From Caldilineales bacterium (GTDB lineage Bacteria; Chloroflexota; Anaerolineae; J102), in NCBI GenBank assembly GCA_019695115.1, contig JAIBAP010000055.1:1-41318 (forward strand): DNA of 41,318 nt, in the 5' to 3' direction. Both the position numbers and the translations under genes were made by a program. Position 1 is the first letter of the stretch. Each line of letters begins with the position of its first letter. Of this stretch, positions 64 through 11,776 are shown piece after piece. A model generated the notes under the pieces. It was not told the DNA's origin and searched no databases. It saw only the letters and a list, made by a program, of their open reading frames with translations.

Positions 64-1248
64 TCATGATATTACCTGCAATTCTCGCCCAATTTTGGCA
101 AAGGCAGACAGGCCGAAGTCCAGGTCGGCGCGGGTGTGGGCGGCGGTGTTCATCACCCGGATGCGGGCCAGGCCGCGGGGGACGGTGGGGAAGCCGATGC
201 TCATGGCGAAGACGCCTTCCTCGAACAGGCGGCGGCTGAACGCTTTCGCCAGGCCGGCGTCGCCGAGCATGACCGGCAGGATGGGCGTCTGGCTCTGGCC
301 GGTGTCGAAGCCAAGCGCCTGCATCCCCTGGCGCAGATAGGCGGCGTTCTCCCACAGTTGGCGGACGCGGTCTTCGCTTTCTTCCAGCAGATCGACGGCA
401 GCTAGACAGGCGGCGGTGTCGGCGGGGGTGGTGGCCGAAGAGAAGAGCAGCGGGCGGGCCTTCTGGCGGATGTAGTCGATGATCAGCTTCTTGCCGGCAA
501 TGACGCCGCCCACCACGCCGAAGGCCTTAGAAAGGGTGCCGATCTCGAGATCGAACTTGCCGTGCAGCCCGAAATGATCGACGATGCCCCGCCCGCCCCG
601 GCCCAACACCCCTTCGCCGTGGGCGTCATCGACCATCGTCAGCACGCCGTGGCGTTCGGCCGCCTCGTACAGCTGGTCGAGCGGGGCGATGTCGCCATCC
701 ATACTGAAGACGCCGTCGGTGATCAGCAGCCCGCGACGATAGTTGGGCAGGTGCTCGGCCATCTTGGCCTCGGCATCGACGGGGTCGCCGTGCTCGTAGA
801 CGATGATCTTGGCGCCCGAAAACCGGCAGCCGTCGATGATCGAGGCATGGTTGAGCCGGTCGGTGAAGATGACATCCTCCTTGCCCACCAGCGGCGAGAT
901 GGCGGCCTGGTTGGCGTTGAAGCCGCTCTGGACGAAGAGGGCGTCTTCGACGCCTTTGAAGGCGGCCAGACGCTGCTCAAGCTCGCGGTGAAGGCTGGTG
1001 GTGCCGGCGATGGTGCGCACCGCTGCCGGGCCGACGCCCCAGCGCGCCACCGCCTCCTGCGCGGCCTGTTTGAGCCGCGGGTGATTGGCCAGGCCCAGGT
1101 AATTGTTGGTGCAGAAGTTGAGGACGCGCTGGCCATCCACTACCATCCAGGCATCGGCGGCCGTCTGGACGGTGCGGATGGTGATCAGCAGGTTGGCCTC
1201 GGCCAGGGCGGCGAGTTCGGCGCCGAGAAAGGCGTATTTGTCAGTCAT
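64..1248 (-). CDS. kbl: Glycine C-acetyltransferase (2-amino-3-ketobutyrate CoA ligase)
   Basis: This cytoplasmic PLP enzyme of the alpha-oxoamine synthase family is expected to cleave 2-amino-3-ketobutyrate with CoA to glycine and acetyl-CoA, in threonine breakdown. The protein is about 394 residues, the usual length for KBL. Visible motifs are FCTNNYLGL near the N-terminus, the DDAHGEG cofactor motif, and TLSKAFG with the Schiff-base lysine at about residue 241. The start at 1248 is preferred over an ATG at 1311 because GTAGGAGC lies just upstream and the extra N-terminal residues are not family-like. Related enzymes (8-amino-7-oxononanoate synthase, serine palmitoyltransferase) share the fold; overall similarity favours KBL. 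No threonine dehydrogenase gene is present in the window. Confidence 0.88.
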
Positions 1249-1311
1249 GTTGCTCCTACCTTTGCTTGCGAAGTGGCTGGAGGTTCGAACAATCGGCCGA
1301 ATCTGGCGCAA

Positions 1312-1320
1312 AGTATAGCA
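1312..1320 (-). promoter_or_regulatory. Extended -10 element for kbl
   Basis: On the minus strand this reads TGC followed by TATACT, an extended -10 box about 64 bases upstream of the kbl start. No convincing -35 hexamer is seen at 16-18 bases, so this is a weak-to-moderate prediction. Confidence 0.4.
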
Positions 1321-1416
1321 GACGCGTCGCCGGCAAGGTGAGGAAGGGAGGGGCGGATCGAAGTGATGGCGGCGGGTAGGATGGTGCTCCGCCCCCTGAC
1401 CGGCCTGACCGCGCCG

Positions 1417-4400
1417 CTATCCGGTTGCTGCTGTGCGCAGAAACGGCAGGTAGAGAAGCCGGCGGCCCTCGCCGGGGTTGGCCGGGTCGACGCCGTTCTC
1501 GGCCTCCCAGCCATCGCTGGCGCCGTCGTGGTCGCTGTCGGGGTCGAGGGGGTCGGTTTTCAGCGCCAGTTCGCCGGCATTGTCCACACCATCGCCGTCG
1601 GGGTCGCCGGCGGCGCCGTTGTCGCCGCTGGCGTCGCCGTCGTCGAAGCCGTAGTGCATCTCCCAATAGGCCGGGAGACCGTCGCCATCCTCGTCGCCGC
1701 TTAGCCCTAACCGGTAGCTGACGGTGAAGACAAGCCGCTCCCAAACCAGTGTCTCACCCGCGACCAGGTCAGCGGGGGCAGAGGCAAGCGAACTGGCAAC
1801 GGGCAGGCTGCGGCGCTGCACCGGGTTGATCCGCAGGCGCACGGCCTGATCGGTCCCGCCCTGAACTTCCACCGAGCTGGCCGGGAAAAAATCGACGCTG
1901 GCCCAGCGCGGGCGAAAGCTGACATCGTGGTTGCCCAGGGCCGGGACGGGAATGGGGCCGGGCAACAAGCGCGCCTGGCTCTGGGCGCCGTCGATCTCGA
2001 CTGATAGCACCTGGCTGCCTTCGGGCAGCAACGGCGCCAGGCTGAAGATGGGGCGCAACGGCTGGTTGAGTCCGCCCGCCGTCGGCATCCCGGCCACGCC
2101 GCTGGCCTGCAACGAATCGGCCAGGGGCGGCAGGCGCAGTTCGTAGCGGATGCGCAGGGTGCGCTGGCTCTGTTCGAGCACGGTTTCATCCCACCAGAAC
2201 TCGCCCGGAAGCGGCCGCAGGATGGCGTTGGGGGGCAGGAAGGGGCGTCGCCAGCGATAGGTGGGGAAACCGTAGAAAGTGGTGGTGGCCAGGACGCGGC
2301 GGTGGCCGCCATCGTTCAGCGCGCCTGGCCCGGCCGCAGCCAGATAATCGTCCACCGCCGCCAGCCAGGCCCGGCCGGCCGTGCGGTAGCCCCCGTGCAG
2401 CAACTGCCGGATGAAGAGGGCGGCGAGTTGTTCGGAATAGAGCGCATAGGCGGGGTCGTCGCTGTCTTCGCTGAGGCTGACCCAGGTGTAGCCGGTGGCG
2501 GCCAGATAGACGCCCACCCGCCGCGCGGCGAAGGCTTCGGGAAAGTCGGCGAAGGTCGGGTCGGCGGTAGGGGCGTGGTAGAGTTGATTGCCGAAGTTGA
2601 CGCCGTTGTGACAGCCGGCGGCCACCACGACGGCGTTCGGCAAGTCGCCCAGATCGCTCACATCGCCCTGAGTGGCGCTGGCGCCCGACCGGAAGCCCTG
2701 GTCCCACTTGCGGGTGGTGATCCAGTTGTAGTCGCCATGCCCGGCCAGAAAGAGGATGTTGGGGCTGGCGGTCATGGCGGGGGGCAGCTGGGCCGAGGTA
2801 AAACCGGGCTGGATGAGGGCGGCGTCGGCGCCTGGCCCCATCGCTTCGGCTGCGGCCCGCGCCCCATCCATGAAGTCGCTCGACCCTGCCGCCAGACGGC
2901 CGGCGTCGGCAAGATAGGCCTCGGCCTCGAGATAGGTGGCGATGAGTGCGCCGATCTGGGCCGGCGTCTCGACCAGGCGGCCGACAGCCAGCTCTGGGCG
3001 CAGCACGCCCTCGTTGCCCCAGCCATCAGCGACAGTGCTGAGGTCGGCATAGGGGGCGTCGGTCAGGTAGTGGCCGGCCGAGCCGGCGCGGTAGAGATCG
3101 AAGAGATAGCCGCTGTTCTGGGGCAGGGGCCAGCTGTCTTCGTCGTAGTTGTCGGCAGGGCGGGCCTGCATGGGCAGGACCTCGTGCCCGCCGACCAGGA
3201 TCAGGTTCTTCAGGTTGGGATAGGTCTGCTGGCGGAGGCTCTCGATCCAGCCGTCGATCGCTGCCACCGCCGCATTGGTGCGTCCGACCTCGCCTTCATG
3301 CCCCGCCCAGGCGTCGAAGCTCGCTCGCACAGCAGCCGGGGCCAGCCCCACGTCTCGGTGGATGGCGATCATGTTGGTTGCGACCGGCGAGCTTTGGACA
3401 AGGGCGCCTACCTGGCCGATCATGGCCTGCACCTGGCTGGCTTCGTAGCCGATGTCGGTCATGCGTTCGCAGGCCGTGAGCACCAGGGTGTCCACAGCCG
3501 CCGGGTCGGGCAGGGGCAGGGGGCGATGGAGATAGTCGATCAGGTTGAGGAAGGCAGCGCGGCCGTCGCCGGTCAGGCGGTCGGGGCCGAGCGCGAAACC
3601 CCAAAGGGCGAGACGGTCGCCCTCGCGCAGCACCGGCCAAAAGGCGGGCGCGTCCGGCACAGAGGCCAGCGGCCGGAGTTGGGCCGGTGGGTTGGCGATG
3701 GGGACGACGACCGCCGAGCCAGGCTGGTCGTAGAGGGTGGTCTGGCCTTCGGAGTCGGCGACGAGGGGGCGAGGGATGCCAAGATCGGGCTGAGCACACG
3801 AGGTGCGGATGGCCGAGGCGGTGGTGTGAGCGCCGGCGGGCCAGCCGATCAGCGCCCCGGCCCGGCCCAAAAAGGCGTAGCCCCCTTCGCCCAGCCCCAG
3901 GACGCGGGTATCGGCGGCCAGGATGCGCTCGACCAGTTGCGGGTTGCCCCAGTCGTTGGCCGAACCGGTGTCGGGGCCGATGAGGAGCAGGCTGTAGGCG
4001 GCAAGGTCCGCCTCGCCGGCCTCGTCCAGGCTGAGATAGCTGGCGTCGAAGCCTTGTGCCACCAGCCAGCGCAGCCAGGTCGCGGCCAGGTCGGCGTCAT
4101 GGTCGTAGAGATAGGCCAGACGCCGGGCCGGCCGCCAACGCTCGAAGGTGAGGTCGTCGATGGTTTCACCGTTGGCGCTTTCGCCGTAGTCCAGGGCCAC
4201 GGCGGCGATGTCGTTGGCGGTGGAGTAGAGGCCGAAGAAGGCCGTCGATGCGGTGGGAGTGGCGCGGGTGAGGACGCCGATGACATCGCCGGTGGCAGTG
4301 TAGGCGCGCAGGGTGGCCATCGCCCCCTGGCCGTTGCCCATCTCCAAGCCGACCCTGCCCACCGGGGGGTCGAAGCGCAAGACCAGGGGCTGGCCGGCGC

Positions 4401-4787: not shown

Positions 4788-4860
4788 TTGCCAGGATGCA
4801 CGAATACCGGCAGGTCGTCAGCTACCGATTCGGGCAGAGCACCCCCGCCTGCAAGTCCGT

Positions 4861-4889
4861 TTGCGCTACGAAGAAACCACGGCTAGAAT
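4861..4889 (+). promoter_or_regulatory. Promoter of the isoprenoid enzyme/peptide unit
   Basis: TTGCGC (4861-4866) and TAGAAT (4884-4889) are spaced by 17 bases. The predicted transcript starts near 4896, which lies inside the longest open frame of the next gene. This argues that translation begins downstream, at about 4949, rather than at 4796. Confidence 0.55.
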
Positions 4890-4948
4890 GCTGGTCGCGG
4901 GTCAGTTCGCAGCGATCCGCACCACCACCCCTGCCAAAAGGATGCCAT

Positions 4949-5893
4949 TTGCAGGTCGAACTGCTTTCGTCTCGTGAAGAAGCGGCCATCCGGGGAGCGT
5001 TTCGACAGACGCTGGTTCGCAGCGCGCCGTCCTTGGCCGAGCAAGGCGACCGGCTGCTCGACCGCCTCCCTCCCCAACGCTGGCTGTTGGAGTGGGGCCT
5101 GCCGTTGTGGCTGGGTGAGAGCTTCGGCCTGAACGAGGAGGTCGCCCTCACCCTGGCAGTGTGCAATCTCCTCGGCCTGGCCTATGTTCGGGTCCAGGAT
5201 GATCTGACCGACGGCGAAATCGAGGCCGCCGACCGCCCCCAGGCGATGGCGCTGGCCACGGTTGCCTTTCAAGCGGCCATCCTGTCCTTCGCCCGCTTGT
5301 TCGGCGGCGACGAACGCTTTTGGACGGCGCTCGAACAGCGGCTGGGGCAATGGGCGCAAGCCCTGCCTGCCCCGCCCGACCTGGCTCCCGGCTTCAGCGC
5401 CCACCCCCACCGCCCCTCGCTGCGCCGGCTCGCTCATGCCGGCGCGCCGGCCCACATCGGCCTCGTCGCTGCCTGTCTGTTGGGTCGGCGCGATGATCTA
5501 CTGCCCCAGCTGAGCGCCGCCCTGGATGACTGGCTGCTGGCAAGTGTGCTCTTGGACCACGCCCGCGACTGGATGCCCGACCTGGACGCCGGTCGCTACA
5601 ACGCTTTCGTTGCCCACAGCACATCGCTGGCCCAGGCGCCCGCCCACCACCAGGCCATCCGCCGCCAGATGCAGGAGATGATTCTCCTGGGCGATGGCGG
5701 CCGACCCTATTTCGATCTCGTCCTGCGGCTGCTGCACGAGGCTCAGGCCGCCGCCCGCCCGGCCGGGTGCGCCCGACTGAACGCCTACCTGGATTGGTTT
5801 GTCGCTCAGACGACTACCGAACTAAACAACCATCGCCAACAGACCGCCGACCAGCTCCATCGCGCTACGAAGCTGCTGTTTGGCAACATCTGA
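4949..5893 (+). CDS. ComQ-like class 1 isoprenoid (polyprenyl) enzyme
   Basis: An all-alpha protein of about 314 residues that resembles trans-isoprenyl diphosphate synthases, and ComQ in particular in size and context. The first Asp-rich motif is DDLTD (residues 84-88). The second is D-H-A-R-D-W-M-P-D-L-D (from about residue 203), followed by GRYN; together these would bind Mg and an allylic diphosphate. The frame is open from 4796, but the promoter at 4861-4889 and the AAAAGG upstream of a TTG codon at 4949 favour the TTG start. The next gene, 84 bases on, encodes a small peptide ending in Trp, so a role in isoprenylating that peptide is inferred. Alternatives are a terpene synthase or an ordinary prenyl diphosphate synthase. 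Family placement is fairly sure; substrate is not. Confidence 0.72.
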   Translation: MQVELLSSREEAAIRGAFRQTLVRSAPSLAEQGDRLLDRLPPQRWLLEWGLPLWLGESFGLNEEVALTLAVCNLLGLAYVRVQDDLTDGEIEAADRPQAMALATVAFQAAILSFARLFGGDERFWTALEQRLGQWAQALPAPPDLAPGFSAHPHRPSLRRLAHAGAPAHIGLVAACLLGRRDDLLPQLSAALDDWLLASVLLDHARDWMPDLDAGRYNAFVAHSTSLAQAPAHHQAIRRQMQEMILLGDGGRPYFDLVLRLLHEAQAAARPAGCARLNAYLDWFVAQTTTELNNHRQQTADQLHRATKLLFGNI

Positions 5894-5905
5894 TGCGCGT
5901 ATCTT

Positions 5906-5928
5906 GCGGGGTCCTTTTCTGGCCCCGC
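5906..5928 (+). other. Small hairpin in the enzyme-peptide gap
   Basis: GCGGGG-T-CC pairs with GG-CCCCGC around a TTTTCT loop, with one bulged T. No U-run follows. It lies between the enzyme gene and the peptide gene and could act as an attenuator or mRNA-processing site that raises peptide over enzyme output. This is inference. Confidence 0.35.
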
Positions 5929-5977
5929 CATCACATCACCCTCCTTCCTCTCATTCACCTACAAGGAGATCTAGAAA

Positions 5978-6208
5978 ATGGCAAGCGAAAGCGAACGCGA
6001 ACGACTGGCCGGACACGCCCTGATGAGCGACGAGAGTTTCCGGAGATGGCTGCTCGATGACCCCATAGCTGCGGCCAAGAGCCTCGGCATCGAGCTATCG
6101 ACGGCCGAAGCCAGGGCGATTCAGTCGGCGGACAAAGGTATGCTAGAGGAGGCGGCCGACCTTGTCTACAAACTGGCGGCCGGGCCTCGCATGATGGGCG
6201 GCTGGTAG
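5978..6208 (+). CDS. Small RiPP-like precursor peptide ending in Gly-Gly-Trp
   Basis: A 76-residue peptide with an excellent ribosome binding site (AAGGAG, 5965-5970). Its N-terminal two-thirds look like a helical leader. The segment DESFRRWLLDDPIAAAKSLG (about residues 18-37), followed by IELSTAEARAIQ, resembles the leader type seen in Franean1_4349-like and other RiPP precursors (F-R-x-x-L-x-x-D-P-x-x-A). The last residues are AGPRMMGGW, with Trp76 at the very C-terminus. ComX of Bacillus is isoprenylated on a Trp close to its C-terminus by ComQ. The neighbour here is ComQ-like, so Trp76 is the obvious candidate target. No protease, transporter or histidine kinase is adjacent. The coding call is strong; modification is inferred. 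Confidence 0.75.
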   Translation: MASESERERLAGHALMSDESFRRWLLDDPIAAAKSLGIELSTAEARAIQSADKGMLEEAADLVYKLAAGPRMMGGW

Positions 6209-6216
6209 CCGACCAG

Positions 6217-6258
6217 TGAGGCGTGGGCGGCTGGCGCCAACCGCCCACGCCTCATTTT
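6217..6258. terminator. Strong intrinsic terminator, probably bidirectional
   Basis: A perfect 14-bp stem (6217-6230 with 6241-6254) encloses a 10-base loop and is followed by TTTT on the plus strand. It ends the enzyme/peptide unit. The convergent minus-strand membrane-protein gene stops inside it at 6252. Confidence 0.85.
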
Positions 6259-7373
6259 ACAACGAGCGGCACCACATAACGCTGGATGATCTCGGTCAGA
6301 ACGATATAGATCAGCGGGCTGGTGGCAGCCGCCAACGCGCGTATCAGCGCGCCCAAATCACGGAACGGCCAGTTTGGCGCTTTGAGGATGTGCGTTCGCA
6401 GCAACGCCAGCTTCTCGGTGCGGGCGGCCAGGTTGTCCAGCGCCTCACTGCTGAGGTAGCTCTCGTCCATGAGGGCGGCGTGCACCTCGCCAAGCTGGCT
6501 GTTGATCTTTTGGCCGGCGCCATCCTTGACCTGCACCATCTGGACGTGAACGCCCCAGAGCGGCAGGATGAGGGTGAGCACGCTGGCGACGAGGGTGAGG
6601 GCAAGGACGAGGAAGCCGACGTGGGTGGGCGGGCCGAGGGTGAGAATAGGAATGAGGATGACGCCGGCCAGGGTGGCGCTGTGCCACAGGCTCAGACGGC
6701 CAAACTCAAGCACGTTGGTGGCATCGAGGACGTTGAGGGCAAGCGACCGGCTCGAGAGCCGACGCAAACCGATGGCATGAGACAGGGCGTCGTACGAGAG
6801 ACTGAGGCCGATCCAGCCAAAGAAGGTGTAGCTGGCGATGATGGCTGCGGCCAAGAAGGCATTGTCTCGGGGCAGAAAGACATCGTCGTAGGCCGGCATG
6901 GGGATGTCCAGGAGGACGAACACGACCAGGACAATGGCAAGCGTAGCGGTCGCCAGGCCCAGGTAGGTATGGCGGCCGGTGCGCAGCATGCGCTGAGCGA
7001 TAAGGTGGTAATCGGCGTTGCTGATCTGGACGCTGGGGCGGAGGCTGCGCAGGGCCTGGAGGGTGCGCCGTCGCAACAAGCGCCAAACCACCATCATGTA
7101 GACGGTGAGCACCGGCAGGAGGAGCCAGGCGGGCAGCAGGCTGAACGTGGTGTTGGTCGTCTCGATCCGCGTCTGCGCTTTCTCCCACAACTGTTCGGCC
7201 ACGATCAAGATGGTGATCGAGGCCAGGCCGAATCCAAACGGCAGCGGCATCCGTTCCAGGGGGGTGCGCGCCCACTCCGGCCACAGCTCGGACTGCCACT
7301 GCTCCCCAGCAGGCGCGGGCGAGCGGGCGTCGTCATCGGCGCTGGGGGGTGGGCTGTGGTCGTGTTCGCTCAT
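6252..7373 (-). CDS. Polytopic membrane protein of unknown function
   Basis: The protein has about 373 residues, with a polar N-terminus (MSEHDHSPPPSADD) and about seven hydrophobic segments. Examples are FGLASITILIVAEQLW, LLPVLTVYMMVVW, ATLAIVLVVFVLLDI, FLAAAIIASYTFFGW, LAGVILIPILTLG and LTLVASVLTLILPLW. A soluble helical stretch (about residues 290-340) follows, then a last hydrophobic segment near the C-terminus. I do not recognise the family. Start 7373 is chosen because residues encoded further upstream look non-coding. It converges on the peptide unit and shares its terminator. No kinase, GGDEF or transporter ATPase motif is visible, so a link to the peptide system is not supported beyond proximity. 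Confidence 0.7.
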   Translation of the reverse strand: MSEHDHSPPPSADDDARSPAPAGEQWQSELWPEWARTPLERMPLPFGFGLASITILIVAEQLWEKAQTRIETTNTTFSLLPAWLLLPVLTVYMMVVWRLLRRRTLQALRSLRPSVQISNADYHLIAQRMLRTGRHTYLGLATATLAIVLVVFVLLDIPMPAYDDVFLPRDNAFLAAAIIASYTFFGWIGLSLSYDALSHAIGLRRLSSRSLALNVLDATNVLEFGRLSLWHSATLAGVILIPILTLGPPTHVGFLVLALTLVASVLTLILPLWGVHVQMVQVKDGAGQKINSQLGEVHAALMDESYLSSEALDNLAARTEKLALLRTHILKAPNWPFRDLGALIRALAAATSPLIYIVLTEIIQRYVVPLVVK

Positions 7374-7475
7374 GGCTAGGGTGGAGATCGGCGCCGGGCT
7401 GGAAACCCACTTGGCTGAGGGAAAGGCGCGTGTCTGCACAGCACCCTGACATTCTAACACGAATCCAGGACGGTA

Positions 7476-7484
7476 TGCTACACT
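7476..7484 (+). promoter_or_regulatory. Extended -10 element upstream of hpt
   Basis: TGC followed by TACACT, about 52 bases before the hpt start codon. A clear -35 hexamer is not seen. Confidence 0.35.
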
Positions 7485-7536
7485 CCGCCTGCCGTCCCGT
7501 TTCCGTTCTTTTATCGCCTTCTACGGATGCCCGATC

Positions 7537-8079
7537 ATGCACAACGATATTGCCGAAATCCTCATCACCGAGAAGCAATTGGCCGTGCGCGTAAGCGCCC
7601 TTGCAGCCGAGATTTCCGCCGCCTATGCCGACCAACAGCCGGTGCTGGTGGCGGTGCTGAAGGGCAGTGTGGTGTTCATGGCTGACTTGATCCGCTCGTT
7701 GACGGTGCCGCACGCCATCGACTTCATGGCCACCTCCAGCTATGGCGCCGCCACCGAATCGACGGGCGTGGTGCGCATCCTCAAGGACCTGGACGAGCCA
7801 ATCGAAGATCAACACGTCCTGATCGTGGAGGACATCATCGATAGCGGCAACACGCTGTACTATCTGCGGAGTTTGCTGCTGGCCCGCAGCCCGGCCAGCC
7901 TGCGCATTGTCACCTTGCTCAGCAAGCCCAGCCGCCGGCTGGTGGATGTGCCCATCGACTGGGTCGGTTTCGAAATCCCCGATAAATTCGTCGTCGGCTA
8001 TGGTCTGGACTATGCCGAGCGCTATCGCAACCTGCCCTACATCGCCGTGCTCAAGCCCGAAGCCTACGGCGGGGGGTGA
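7537..8079 (+). CDS. hpt: Hypoxanthine phosphoribosyltransferase
   Basis: A type I phosphoribosyltransferase of 180 residues, the normal length for Hpt. It would convert hypoxanthine or guanine plus PRPP to IMP or GMP in purine salvage in the cytoplasm. The PRPP-binding motif VLIVEDIIDSGNTL is exact. Other family segments are VAVLKGSVVFMADL near the N-terminus, DFMATSSYG, and DWVGFEIPDKFVVGYGLDY near the C-terminus. The ribosome binding site is weak. It stands alone between the membrane protein (opposite strand) and a degraded gene region. A palindromic repeat begins 8 bases after its stop codon. Confidence 0.93.
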   Translation: MHNDIAEILITEKQLAVRVSALAAEISAAYADQQPVLVAVLKGSVVFMADLIRSLTVPHAIDFMATSSYGAATESTGVVRILKDLDEPIEDQHVLIVEDIIDSGNTLYYLRSLLLARSPASLRIVTLLSKPSRRLVDVPIDWVGFEIPDKFVVGYGLDYAERYRNLPYIAVLKPEAYGGG

Positions 8080-8086
8080 GAATTGC

Positions 8087-8119
8087 AGGTGCGACGCACT
8101 TTGGAAGTGCATCGCACCT
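8087..8119. repeat. 15-bp palindromic repeat, copy 1
   Basis: AGGTGCGACGCACTT, a 3-base loop (TGG), then AAGTGCATCGCACCT, which pairs with one mismatch. An almost identical element lies at 36447-36479. Both follow the 3' end of a gene and lack a U-run. This looks like a dispersed REP-type element. Confidence 0.75.
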
Positions 8120-8120
8120 G

Positions 8121-8162
8121 ATGATTTCATTGCCAGTGAAATCATTTGGCTGTATGATTTCA
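8121..8162 (+). promoter_or_regulatory. Promoter with an overlapping inverted repeat before the ATPase relic
   Basis: TTGCCA (8130-8135) and TATGAT (8153-8158) are spaced by 17 bases, placing transcription start at about the ATG at 8165 (leaderless). ATGATTTCA (8121-8129) and TGAAATCAT (8137-8145) form a 9-bp inverted repeat across the -35 box. A third half-site ATGATTTCA (8154-8162) covers the -10 box. This is a plausible operator, still present although the gene is broken. Confidence 0.6.
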
Positions 8163-8164
8163 GT

Positions 8165-8608
8165 ATGAGTGAAAACAATTGGGCAGCGAGATGGTCGAAG
8201 GCCCAGATTCGGGCCATGCTGCGCCAGCAATTCCAGGCATTCTGGCAGCGAGACACCGGCATCGAACGGACACAGTTGGCCGCCGTCGAACGCGCATCGC
8301 CGCTGCCTCATGCTGTCGTCATCTCCGGCTTGCGGCGGGCCGGCAAGTCCACCCTGCTGGCGCAGCTCGCTCACCGGCTGGGCGAGGACACGTTTTACTA
8401 TCTCAACTTCGAGGATGAGCGTTTCCTCGGCTTCGAGGCGAGCGACGCCAACGACCTGTACGGGCTGTTGATCGAAGTCTTTGGCCAGCGCCGCGTCTTC
8501 GTGGTGGACGAAATCCAGAATCTCGTTGGCCGAGTGGTTGCTTGGGGGCCAACTACTCCGCCATTCCCAAATACCCCTACGGTGCTGAAGCCCCAACACC
8601 TTGCTTAG
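8165..8608 (+). pseudogene. Truncated AAA-type ATPase (AAA_14/DUF4143-like), N-terminal part
   Basis: The open frame gives 147 residues, but only the first ~120 look like the family. The Walker A motif is SGLRRAGKSTLL and Walker B with its acidic pair is RVFVVDEIQN (ending near 8525). Intact proteins of this family run to about 380-450 residues, with a C-terminal DUF4143 domain. Here the similarity ends right after Walker B, and the remaining residues (about 8528-8608) are unrelated filler. It converges on a MazF-like fragment that is also truncated at its 3' end, so one deletion probably removed both tails. The promoter and operator upstream look intact. Confidence 0.72.
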
Positions 8609-8688
8609 TCGCTGTCCACAGACAGTACCAATTCACCTTCAGGCAATAGAAATGGCACCAGCACAACATCGCCACGTTCGTAGTTCAT
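8605..8688 (-). pseudogene. MazF/PemK-like toxin, N-terminal fragment
   Basis: This short minus-strand frame starts with ATG at 8688 and stops at 8605 after 27 codons. It begins MNYERGDVVLVPFLLPEGE, the typical start of MazF/PemK endoribonuclease toxins (usually about 110-120 residues). Its ATG overlaps the TGA of the preceding small gene (ATGA), the coupling typical of antitoxin-toxin pairs. The rest of the toxin is missing. Confidence 0.65.
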
Positions 8689-8933
8689 ATGGACCTATCC
8701 GACGATCCTGAATTGTTTATCGGCGCGAAGTCATCGTACAGGTTTTCCGACGGATCAGCCCAGAAAGCGAAAGCTGATTCTGCCAGATACAGCCAGCCCC
8801 GCCCCTCCTCGCTATCGCCGGTCGCGGCCAACACCCGTGGCAGCCGCCGTCGCAAATCAACGGCCTCTGTATCGGTCAACTGGCCGATTGCGATTAAAAT
8901 CTGGTCTACATTCAGTCTGGCTACTGTTCCCAT
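8685..8933 (-). CDS. Probable antitoxin of a broken MazF-type pair
   Basis: An 82-residue protein beginning MGTVARLNVDQILIAIGQLT and containing FWADPSENLYDDFAP near the C-terminus. The ending resembles small antitoxins that finish with an acidic W-x-D-P-x-x-x-x-Y-D-D segment, which wraps the toxin. Its stop codon overlaps the start of the MazF-like fragment by ATGA. With the toxin cut to 27 residues it is an orphan, which it can remain without harm. No DNA-binding fold can be assigned with confidence. No good ribosome binding site is visible. Confidence 0.55.
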   Translation of the reverse strand: MGTVARLNVDQILIAIGQLTDTEAVDLRRRLPRVLAATGDSEEGRGWLYLAESAFAFWADPSENLYDDFAPINNSGSSDRSI

Positions 8934-9019
8934 GTTGCTGTCTCTGCTTTTTGAACGACTACATCACGATGAACTTGGGTGACAGCCAGGATCATACGGA
9001 GAACCTTTCTTCGTTGTCA

Positions 9020-9166
9020 AGCTTGCCTGCTCGCCACTTTGCTTCGGCGGTGGCCGGGCGCTACCCCGCCCTGCGGCTCGGCCCGCCCTGGTGGTTTTTC
9101 GATAGCATCAGCGGCATGACCCGCTATCGCGACCTGGTGCATGAGACCGCCCGGCTTTCTCGCTAA
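9020..9166 (+). pseudogene. Uronate isomerase fragment
   Basis: A 48-residue stretch contains GRYPALRLGPPWWFFDS followed by SGMTRYRDLVHETA. This matches the C-terminal part of glucuronate/uronate isomerases (UxaC family, normally about 430-470 residues), where the conserved WWF-x-D segment lies near the active site. There is no upstream UxaC sequence, and the frame stops at 9166 soon after the motif. It is a relic of a sugar-acid catabolic gene and marks this region as a deletion scar. It abuts the 3' end of the MgtC-like gene on the other strand. Confidence 0.6.
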
Positions 9167-9657
9167 GATGGTGGATTCGTTGCGCCAGGAGGGGGCGGCG
9201 GGGTCGCCGGTTTGCGCACCTTCTCGATGTAGATCGCCTCGAGGCGGTGCAAAACCGTGAGGATGAGGAGCACAAGCACCGTGGCCACCAACGCCAACAG
9301 ACCAAAGCCGGCGCCGGCGGCCATGCCGATGCCGGCAGCCACCCACAGCCCGGCCGCAGTCGTTAGCCCCTTCATCGTATCCTGCGCCCGCCAGATAGCT
9401 CCAGCCCCCAGAAAACCGACGCCGGTGACGATCTGCGCCGCCACACGCGCCGTATCGCGTGCGGGGCCTTCCAAAGGAAAACCGTAGATCGACAAGAGCG
9501 TAAACAGGCATGAACCGACGCTGACGAGCATGTAGGTGCGCAAGCCGGCCGGGCGGGCGGCGGTGGTGCGCTCCAACCCGATCACCCCGCCCAGAAAGGC
9601 GGCGATGACCAGATCCCGCACCATTGCCCAGGTGACAGTGTCAAAAAAGCCGAACAT
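9163..9657 (-). CDS. MgtC/SapB family membrane protein
   Basis: The protein has about 164 residues and four or five membrane segments. It matches the MgtC/SapB N-terminal family: FLGGVIGLERTTAARPAGLR (residues 19-38), then TYMLVSVGSCLFTLLS, AQIVTGVGFLGAGAIW and GLTTAAGLWVAAGIGMAAG. The family is linked to growth at low magnesium and to control of membrane potential or the F-ATPase in some bacteria; its role here is unknown. The start at 9657 is supported by GAAGGAGGG upstream. The C-terminus is short and proline-rich (KPATPPPPPGATNPPS), so the cytoplasmic ACT-like domain of longer MgtC proteins is absent. Confidence 0.88.
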   Translation of the reverse strand: MFGFFDTVTWAMVRDLVIAAFLGGVIGLERTTAARPAGLRTYMLVSVGSCLFTLLSIYGFPLEGPARDTARVAAQIVTGVGFLGAGAIWRAQDTMKGLTTAAGLWVAAGIGMAAGAGFGLLALVATVLVLLILTVLHRLEAIYIEKVRKPATPPPPPGATNPPS

Positions 9658-9800
9658 GGGTCCCTCCTTCGGGGTTGGGTACGGCGTAGGCGATGGAGAA
9701 CCTCGCTCACGATGCCAGATCATACTTCCCCATGCCGCTTGACGCAAGCCCTCGCCCGTGTTTGGCCCTTGCCAGGGCAAGATGTCCACCACAGGCCGCC

Positions 9801-9830
9801 TTGCCTTGATCCCTTGTTCCACCTTATACT
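9801..9830 (+). promoter_or_regulatory. Promoter upstream of the polyproline protein
   Basis: TTGCCT (9801-9806) and TATACT (9825-9830) are spaced by 18 bases. The leader to the next start codon would be about 100 bases and ends with AAGGAGGG. Confidence 0.45.
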
Positions 9831-9935
9831 CCTGCCATCGTCCACTTTCGCTGCCAGTCCTGTCTACGTCGACTAGATAAGCGGCGAACCGTTATCGACA
9901 GAGCCTCCCGCACTCTGGATAAGGAGGGTGCACTG

Positions 9936-10499
9936 ATGAACCGTGACTGGGATAGTCGTCTCGATGCCATGGGCGCACGTCTGGAGACGCGACCAGACGC
10001 CGAGTTTCACCTCGTCGAAGCGCGCTGGCAGGATGAAAAGGCTTCGGGTGACAAGCATCACATCTACCTGCGCGTCCTGGATGAAAACGGCAAGCCGATC
10101 GAAGGCCACTTCTTCCGCGTCAGCAACGGCGGCGTCTATGTCGACCGCACCAAAGGGCCGGGTTTCGACGATTATTGGGGCAATTTCCCCATGTTTGCCG
10201 GCGGCGCCTACACGGTGGACATCCCGACCGGCGCCTCTGACAGGGTCATCAATCTGCCAAGTGGGACCCCGGCCAACCGCTACGCCAACACCTGCTTCTT
10301 CCTCGTCTTTCAGCGCGGCCAGGCATCTCCCCCACCCCCGCCTCCTCCACCCCCGCCTCCCCCGCCTCCTCCACCCCCGCCTCCTCCACCTCCGCCACAC
10401 GGACTCGACGCCCCCACCAGGCAACGGCTGTTGGATCTGCTGGCGCAGGCGCAGGCCGAGATCGACGCCGCTCGCGCCCTGCTGGAGAGCCTGCAATGA
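9936..10499 (+). CDS. Hypothetical protein with a 23-residue polyproline tract
   Basis: A 187-residue protein with a strong ribosome binding site (AAGGAGG, about 9921-9927). Residues 1-130 look like a compact beta-rich domain (HHIYLRVLDENGKPIEGHFF, then GGVYVDRTKGPGFDDYWGN). Then come 23 consecutive prolines (10329-10397), built from a near-repeating mix of four Pro codons, and a C-terminal helix (LLDLLAQAQAEIDAARALLE) that could form a coiled coil. There is no signal peptide. Translation through the prolines should depend on EF-P. The stop overlaps the start of the next gene (ATGA), so the two are translationally coupled. Related beta domains may bind carbohydrate; this is inference from the neighbour. 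Family not recognised. Confidence 0.75.
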   Translation: MNRDWDSRLDAMGARLETRPDAEFHLVEARWQDEKASGDKHHIYLRVLDENGKPIEGHFFRVSNGGVYVDRTKGPGFDDYWGNFPMFAGGAYTVDIPTGASDRVINLPSGTPANRYANTCFFLVFQRGQASPPPPPPPPPPPPPPPPPPPPPPPHGLDAPTRQRLLDLLAQAQAEIDAARALLESLQ

Positions 10500-11776
10500 C
10501 CCGCAAACTCCACCGCGTCGGTTTCCACTGGCGCTCCACCTTCCATCACGACAATGTCCCCAACTGGGACATGTGGTTGCGCGAGATCGAAGCGCTGGGG
10601 ATTGGCGGGCTGTTCATCTGCCATGATGTCAGCGGCATGCGGCACTACGACCCCCACACCAGGACGCTCGACCCCAACCGCATCCCCACCGACGCCCGGC
10701 CGGGCATCGAAGGGATGGTGCGCGACCTGCTCAGCATCGGCGTCGAACCGGCCCTGCGCCTTAGCGATGGCGACGGCATCCGCCCCAACGCCATCCCCGC
10801 CCATGTCTTAGATGGCCTGGCTAAGGCAGGAGTCAAACACGTTCAGATCTGGAACGAACCGAACGACGACCGCGAATGGTATGACAAGAAGGTGCCGAAG
10901 GATTGGGCGAGAAAGTCGATCGAGTGGGTCTTGCCGGCCTGTCGCTACGGGCTGGACAACGGGCTGGAGATGTCGCTGCCAGCGATCAACCCTGGCCCCA
11001 ACGACAATCAGTTCCAGATGGTGGTCGATCTAGGCGCCGGCGACCTGTTCGAGAAAGGCCTGGCCGTCAACATCCACCTCTATCCCTTCAATCGCTTCAT
11101 CTGGAAAGGCAAACCCTACCCCTTCGACGATGTCCATCAACAGGGCGAGCAACTGACCGAAGCCGAGTACGCGGCGCTGGACCCCTGGTATTGGCACGGC
11201 TACCCGCGCGAATACATCAACCAGATGCGTCGCGAGCAGGCCAAACCCGGCTGCACGATCATGGACGACGCCAACGGCTTGATGGGCTGGCTGTGCCACG
11301 AGCAGCACATGAAGGCCGCCCTCGGCCCTGACGCCGCCGTGCCGTCTCGCATCACCGAGATGGGGCCGCGACCCTGGCAAGACCTGGACAAACGCTACCC
11401 GCGCCTGACGCCCGCCGAACATGCCCGCCAGGTGGCCCTCATCTGTCGTTGGCTGGAAGGCGAAATCGATATCGGCGGCTACCGGCGGCCAGAATGGCTC
11501 AAGGTCGGTTATTTCTGGATCATGGGCGGCAAAGTGCTGGGCGACCTCAGTCATGTCTTCGAGGCCGACTCTTTCTACGGCGACTGGTTCATGGATCGCC
11601 GCGAGCCGCAGTACAATTATCCGCAGACTCCCATCGGCCACATGCCAGCCATCGAAGCCATGAAGGCATTGGCAGACGAGCAGGCGCCCGTTGTCGACTA
11701 TGGCGAGATCATCCGTCATCTTCTGGCCGCGCAACAGGCGCTGGGCGAGGCCAGCAAGTTGATCTCAAGCTTGTAG
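10496..11776 (+). CDS. Glycosidase-like TIM-barrel protein (clan GH-A type)
   Basis: A 426-residue protein without signal peptide. Segments follow a (beta/alpha)8 barrel: FHWRSTFHHDNVPNWDMW at the start, VKHVQIWNEPNDD with the putative acid/base Glu121 after Asn, and SRITEMGPRPW with the putative nucleophile Glu288. The Asn-Glu-Pro signature and the position of the second Glu are those of clan GH-A glycosidases (GH5/GH39-like). The C-terminus has a short helix (LLAAQQALGEASKLISSL) like the one ending the preceding protein. Its ATG overlaps the preceding stop codon, so the two proteins are probably made together and may form a complex. The absence of a signal peptide is odd for a polysaccharide hydrolase. 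Confidence 0.68.
   Translation: MTRKLHRVGFHWRSTFHHDNVPNWDMWLREIEALGIGGLFICHDVSGMRHYDPHTRTLDPNRIPTDARPGIEGMVRDLLSIGVEPALRLSDGDGIRPNAIPAHVLDGLAKAGVKHVQIWNEPNDDREWYDKKVPKDWARKSIEWVLPACRYGLDNGLEMSLPAINPGPNDNQFQMVVDLGAGDLFEKGLAVNIHLYPFNRFIWKGKPYPFDDVHQQGEQLTEAEYAALDPWYWHGYPREYINQMRREQAKPGCTIMDDANGLMGWLCHEQHMKAALGPDAAVPSRITEMGPRPWQDLDKRYPRLTPAEHARQVALICRWLEGEIDIGGYRRPEWLKVGYFWIMGGKVLGDLSHVFEADSFYGDWFMDRREPQYNYPQTPIGHMPAIEAMKALADEQAPVVDYGEIIRHLLAAQQALGEASKLISSL

Follow-up and report, generated by a model that had tools for sequence, protein, structure and literature searches.

What do an enzyme gene with isoprenyl-synthase motifs and the small tryptophan-ended peptide gene behind it make, and which other genes belong with them? 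The question is raised by a contig of a Caldilineales bacterium (Chloroflexota; GenBank JAIBAP010000055.1), of which 41,318 nucleotides, here called the window, were analyzed. A preliminary description made from the letters alone had read positions 4861 to 6258 as a compact two-gene system for an isoprenylated peptide, with a promoter, a ComQ-like enzyme, a peptide with a RiPP leader, and a terminator. We find that the unit has three genes and extends past 6258 into a convergent gene. The features are as follows.

4949..5893, plus strand: enzyme gene, PalQ-like putative Trp prenyltransferase, 314 amino acids, TTG start
5963..5968, plus strand: ribosome binding site of the peptide gene, AAGGAG, read from the sequence
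5978..6208, plus strand: precursor peptide gene, Os1348-type NHLP, 76 amino acids, ATG start, ending ..GPRMMGGW
6217..6254, no strand assigned: near-perfect inverted repeat between the peptide gene and the convergent gene, probable shared terminator
6252..7373, minus strand: conserved convergent membrane protein gene, seven hydrophobic segments, N-in/C-out, candidate receptor or immunity protein

The best start of the enzyme gene is the TTG at 4949, preceded by AAAAGGA, and the stop lies at 5893. The longer form given by the ORF finder, from an ATG at 4796, is unlikely because the alignment with relatives begins near residue 1 of the protein read from the TTG. Both acidic motifs noted earlier are present: DDLTD at residues 84 to 88, and LLDHARDW from residue 201, which contains D203-H-x-x-D207-W. 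The enzyme has no match in Pfam or NCBIfam (the Pfam polyprenyl synthetase profile is absent at an E value of ≤1), its profile found nothing among PDB sequences, and a single-sequence scan over the genome contigs gave no confirmed relative. The AlphaFold2 model, built with 14 relatives in the alignment, has a mean pLDDT of 89.5 and a trans-isoprenyl-diphosphate synthase (trans-IDS) fold, with a best Z score of 23.4 over 270 residues (rmsd, 3.1); trans-IDS structures match it with Z scores of 20 to 23 across 240 to 284 residues, about its whole length. The isoprenyl-synthase part of the earlier assignment therefore stands, while ComQ is displaced as the nearest kind of enzyme by the PalQ type.

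PalQ, PalX, and PalP were described in Paenibacillus alvei in 2023. The substrate of PalQ is an NHLP precursor, whose C-terminal Trp receives the prenyl group at C3 (PMC10853753). PalQ is a trans-IDS-like enzyme in which Gln197, three residues before Asp200, contacts the indole NH, and it does not tolerate residues after the Trp (PMC10853753). According to a review, it prefers GW ends (PMC13290415). The window's enzyme has V200 at the position of PalQ Gln197, and Val is found there in all 14 aligned cassette enzymes. D84, D203, and D207 are invariant in the same alignment and H204 is present in 13 of 14; several members have a degenerate first motif (DAWAD, DALSD, DKLVD, and DQLAE). Most distant relatives of the enzyme in the phylum retain the Gln. 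In the tree, all 15 cassette enzymes group together (support, 96/99), and the rest of that tree is unreliable because of long branches outside the cassette group. With Val for Gln and a separate cassette clade, we call the enzyme a PalQ-like sister variant and not PalQ.

The peptide gene agrees with its first description: ATG at 5978, stop at 6208, a strong ribosome binding site, and Trp76 as the last residue after Gly-Gly. Its leader, first taken for a RiPP leader of the Franean1_4349 type, is indeed of a RiPP kind and matches the Os1348 family NHLP clan model (NF038399) with 49.5 bits against a cutoff of 40; the Pfam Frankia_peptide model gave 29.8 bits, below its cutoff of 48. We rejected a ComX-type identity: there was no match to the pheromone family PF05952 at an E value of ≤1. 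A ComX family search of the window's own genome found none, but the control set for that search gave no matches either, which makes its negative outcome uninformative.

Is the terminal Trp a property of peptides that accompany this enzyme? A Trp follows the leader part in all 18 peptides read from cassette loci. It is the last residue in nine (GGW, RGW, FLW, SFW, VLW, TFW, SFW, IPW, and GFW) and lies within 10 residues of the end in 17; the exceptional peptide has Trp at the 17th and 23rd positions from its C terminus. Half of the peptides carry 1 to 22 residues beyond the Trp. Conservation of a Trp at or near the C terminus, on which the preliminary description had staked its reading, is thus seen, whereas a strictly final Trp is not, and we do not claim it as a family rule. 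Os1348 peptides occur in 104 of 199 genomes of the class, often enough for a control set to be formed from 58 of them lying away from cassette enzymes. Only 1 of these 58 is Trp final, and in 19 a Trp falls within 10 residues of the end. The differences from the cassette peptides (9/18 versus 1/58, Fisher P = 3e-6; 17/18 versus 19/58, Fisher P = 4e-6) are indicative, since the peptides are related and not independent draws.

Other Os1348-type sequences were seen along the way. The window's genome has two more (G000:C38:23416-23598 and G000:C74:14071-14208), one of them inside a 414-amino-acid repetitive reading frame, with no PalQ-like enzyme nearby. A subgroup with ..R.TK..W.. ends, one of them Trp final, occurs at L090 (G200, 1480-1689), L091 (G188, 1477-1692), L106 (G204, 1471-1686), and L110 (G147, 1471-1680), with no recognizable prenyltransferase within 1.5 kb.

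As for the borders of the unit, the hairpin described after the peptide gene is there and is strong, with 19-nucleotide arms that are 95% complementary and a minimum free energy of −34.9 kcal/mol (z, −6.2). The promoter could not be recovered: no sigma-70-like site on the plus strand upstream of the enzyme passed a simple scan. Nor does the unit close at 6258, as had been proposed, with the convergent gene at 6252 to 7373 belonging to it.

We searched 396 genomes of the class with the enzyme profile and found 15 strong loci in 14 genomes; the remaining matches, with E values of 2e-15 and weaker, form a separate distant group outside these loci. An Os1348 peptide gene lies directly downstream on the same strand in all 15 loci, in some as two or three copies, and a Trp-bearing peptide thus accompanies every one of these enzymes; none of these relatives is a synthase without a peptide partner. 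The membrane protein gene is adjacent and convergent in 14 of the 15. At the 15th (G142), the contig stops after the peptide, and a strong membrane protein match opens a second contig. Strong membrane protein matches (E < 1e-40) occur in 14 of 14 enzyme genomes versus 2 of 382 others; weaker relatives are more widely distributed and lack the enzyme. No fourth gene is generally conserved around the cassettes (one is common to three close relatives only), and the survey of neighbors found no protease, exporter, kinase, or regulator in the conserved unit. One genome (G183) has the complete three-gene cassette twice, in diverged copies (L043 on C31 and L050 on C143). Apart from the window, a phylum-wide sample yielded distant relatives of the enzyme but none close to the cassette enzymes.

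One cassette (G048, L049, 7271-8659) shows apparent frameshifts in the enzyme and membrane protein genes, perhaps from long-read assembly, with its peptide end, ..GLGFW, intact. Among distant enzyme relatives of the Gln type, L118 (G703, 894-2220) and L054 (G271, 162-3510) have nearby Os1348 peptides whose ends read ..GSFWK and ..VLGWN. Neither locus shows a match to the seven-transmembrane partner; they are a further PalQ-like clade beyond the cassette clade. At L051 (G279, 4839-11394), L052 (G303), and L055 (G324), a protein of 626 to 710 amino acids weakly matches the enzyme profile; each cluster also has another enzyme-like gene and an Os1348 peptide that ends in ..FGENxAAV, without Trp. 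These proteins are possibly fused prenyltransferase-cyclase types targeting another residue.

Outside the phylum, tblastn searches of 72,556 plasmids with the enzyme and with the membrane protein each returned one record, and it was the same one: the 13-kb plasmid unnamed6 of Tolypothrix sp. PCC 7910. It carries all three genes in the layout of the window, with the enzyme gene spanning the record start. Its peptide is annotated as "Os1348 family NHLP clan protein" and has Trp at the 17th position from the end (..HVNWRVDLPNRTSIALLKKI). The cassette is therefore also present in Cyanobacteriota and can be mobile, and the linkage of all three parts is strict across two phyla. The peptide alone found nothing among the plasmids, and viral contigs and phages contained no cassette relatives.

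The link to PalQ was found through Paenibacillus cellulosilyticus. The Tolypothrix enzyme detects a PalQ-type homologue there by tblastn (24% identity; E = 9e-14), and the cassette enzyme profile matches it with an E value of 1.2e-27. This homologue has Gln at the position of PalQ Gln197. It is followed by five NHLP peptides and a convergent 641-amino-acid histidine kinase with HisKA and HATPase_c domains, a seven-transmembrane region, and a weak 7TMR-DISM_7TM match. The five tandem precursors (NZ_CP054613.1; L171 6858-8337) are without annotation in the PLSDB table, and their Trp is penultimate (TWV, VWI, NWL, VWF, and IWT). This arrangement agrees with what was published for PalQ/PalX/PalP of P. 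alvei. Enzyme, peptide or peptides, and convergent membrane partner are therefore a layout common to both systems; the partner is a kinase in the Paenibacillus locus and a seven-transmembrane protein that is not a kinase in the cassette. A pattern scan of the genome contigs for the PalX core, DNVRRFFW, found none.

Could the enzyme instead be a conventional synthase of isoprenyl diphosphates or terpenes, beside a peptide that is an unmodified regulator or unrelated? The trans-IDS fold and the DDxxD motif kept by the window's enzyme would suit one. The lack of any Pfam or NCBIfam synthase family match, Val-DH in place of a Gln-DD second motif, the peptide pairing with a Trp conserved at every locus, and the homology to the PalQ-type locus all argue otherwise; we regard this explanation as very improbable and reject it. 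From the fold, the motifs, the three-gene linkage, the Trp enrichment, and the Paenibacillus PalQ-type homology, we consider it likely that the locus is a three-gene PalQ-like prenylated-peptide cassette with a non-kinase membrane partner, probably a receptor or immunity protein. A prenyl group would very probably be attached to the last Trp of the small peptide, as in PalQ/PalX. The points against this PalQ-like reading are Val for Gln197, degenerate first motifs, tails after the Trp, and a unit with no protease, exporter, or kinase.

In such a cassette, the Os1348/NHLP leader would dock the precursor on the trans-IDS-like enzyme, where Asp84, Asp88, and the DHxxD motif may hold Mg2+. The indole of Trp76 would then receive an allylic group, probably one of C10 or C15, in the manner of PalQ. 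A host protease would remove the leader, and the short prenylated peptide would pass to the membrane or outside. The N-in seven-transmembrane protein, sitting in the sensor-kinase slot of the PalQ-type locus, would be the partner of the product and most likely its receptor, possibly a ligand-gated channel with an insect-chemoreceptor-like fold.

What, then, is the membrane protein? Among 12 aligned sequences, it has seven hydrophobic segments with a strong positive-inside bias (on average, 25 Lys and Arg over about 202 residues in the inner parts and 4 over about 61 in the outer parts) and a long cytosolic region between segments 6 and 7. Searches of Pfam and NCBIfam gave nothing informative and no kinase or transporter family, and its profile found nothing among PDB sequences. 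In the AlphaFold2 model (pLDDT, 77), the top 20 structural matches are all insect odorant or gustatory receptors, with Z scores of 9.4 to 12.2 over about 280 residues; VIA-align against Orco (6C70) gave a Z of 10.1, but helical proteins may reach values below 13 by chance. Foldseek gave an E value of 0.26. The PDB is rich in other seven-transmembrane proteins. Published screens for the 7TMIC group, which comprises insect odorant and gustatory receptors and their relatives, used a Dali Z of >10 to 6C70, N-in topology, and odorant or gustatory receptors as best hits (eLife 85537), and prokaryotic members have been reported (PMC11526382). We take the likeness in our model as a lead that is only suggestive and do not claim 7TMIC membership, given the Foldseek value, Z scores under 13, and no sequence match. 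A weak second relative of the protein (E = 1e-11) lies elsewhere in the window's genome (G000:C12:248-1183), without the enzyme.

The preliminary description had noted that no ComP/ComA-like sensor was present and had placed any receptor elsewhere. There is indeed no conserved kinase; the second part needs correction because a conserved convergent seven-transmembrane gene adjoins the peptide gene. We think that this protein is most likely a receptor, as its gene position and the middling fold match of the model suggest. The cassette might instead make a prenylated antimicrobial peptide, with the membrane protein conferring immunity. Strict linkage and separate transcription are equally compatible with that, a plasmid copy suits a bacteriocin, and Os1348 of Pseudomonas Os17, an Os1348 relative, has been linked to antibiotic activity (PMC7726476). 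On the other side, the PalQ-type locus of Paenibacillus has a sensor kinase in the equivalent slot, inner loops totaling about 200 residues are large for a plain immunity protein, and there is no dedicated exporter; we judge immunity somewhat unlikely. That the enzyme prenylates the peptide and the membrane protein acts as an exporter, flippase, or membrane-processing partner seems quite unlikely to us: a lipidated peptide requires a way out and the unit holds no other conserved export or processing gene, but the protein matches no transporter family, and the Paenibacillus slot is again filled by a kinase. The receptor reading in its fullest form is a mobile three-gene pheromone-receptor pair across phyla, in which a C-terminally Trp-prenylated peptide would be sensed by a bacterial insect-chemoreceptor-like seven-transmembrane channel replacing the kinase of ComQXPA and PalQXP. 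We put it forward tentatively, as rather unlikely in all its parts.

Prenylation of Trp in NHLP peptides is known as a kind since 2023, and the joining of a RiPP leader with a C-terminal-Trp prenyltransferase, as read in the preliminary description, is not new and has its precedent in PalQ/PalX (PMC10853753). We found no description of the variant with Val for Gln, an Os1348 leader, a non-kinase seven-transmembrane partner, and occurrence in a second phylum and on a plasmid in the literature searched, mostly outside subscription journals. Descriptions of Trp prenylation in NHLP peptides have so far concerned PalQ of Paenibacillus; the cassette would take it into another class of bacteria and onto a plasmid of a cyanobacterium. 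Its enzymes differ in the second Asp motif and have no Trp-sensing Gln, so they can be used to test indole recognition. A receptor-like bacterial seven-transmembrane protein also gains a strictly linked partner gene, and prokaryotic insect-chemoreceptor relatives would gain a concrete candidate ligand should the protein be a receptor.

Compared with known systems, the membrane protein resembles the 7TMIC proteins in its seven N-in transmembrane segments, short outer and long inner loops, and best structural matches, all to odorant and gustatory receptors, and differs in having no sequence match and only Z scores of 9 to 12 with a Foldseek E of 0.26. The ComQ/ComX/ComP/ComA system of Bacillus shares a trans-IDS-like enzyme expected to prenylate the Trp of a dedicated small peptide and a membrane partner nearby; the cassette peptide, however, is an NHLP RiPP precursor without a ComX match, and no ComP or ComA is linked to the cassettes. 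The Trp farnesyltransferase Ord1 (PDB 9v4g) is similar in fold to the enzyme model (Foldseek E = 2e-3; TM score, 0.63), but its substrate is free Trp, and it keeps the Gln and Asp residues (Q216 and D219 by PDB titles). PalQ/PalX differs from the cassette in having Gln197 instead of Val200, DDxxD instead of DHxxD as the second motif, a classical nitrile-hydratase-like instead of an Os1348-type leader, and a linked sensor histidine kinase instead of a seven-transmembrane protein without a kinase; many cassette peptides, unlike PalX, also continue past the Trp. In both systems, an NHLP-type precursor with a Trp end adjoins a trans-IDS-like enzyme, and the spacing of the Asp motifs agrees (D89/D93 and D200/D204 in PalQ; D84/D88 and D203/D207 here). 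With the PalQ-type locus of P. cellulosilyticus, the cassette further shares detectable enzyme homology and the order of the genes, the membrane partner being convergent in both.
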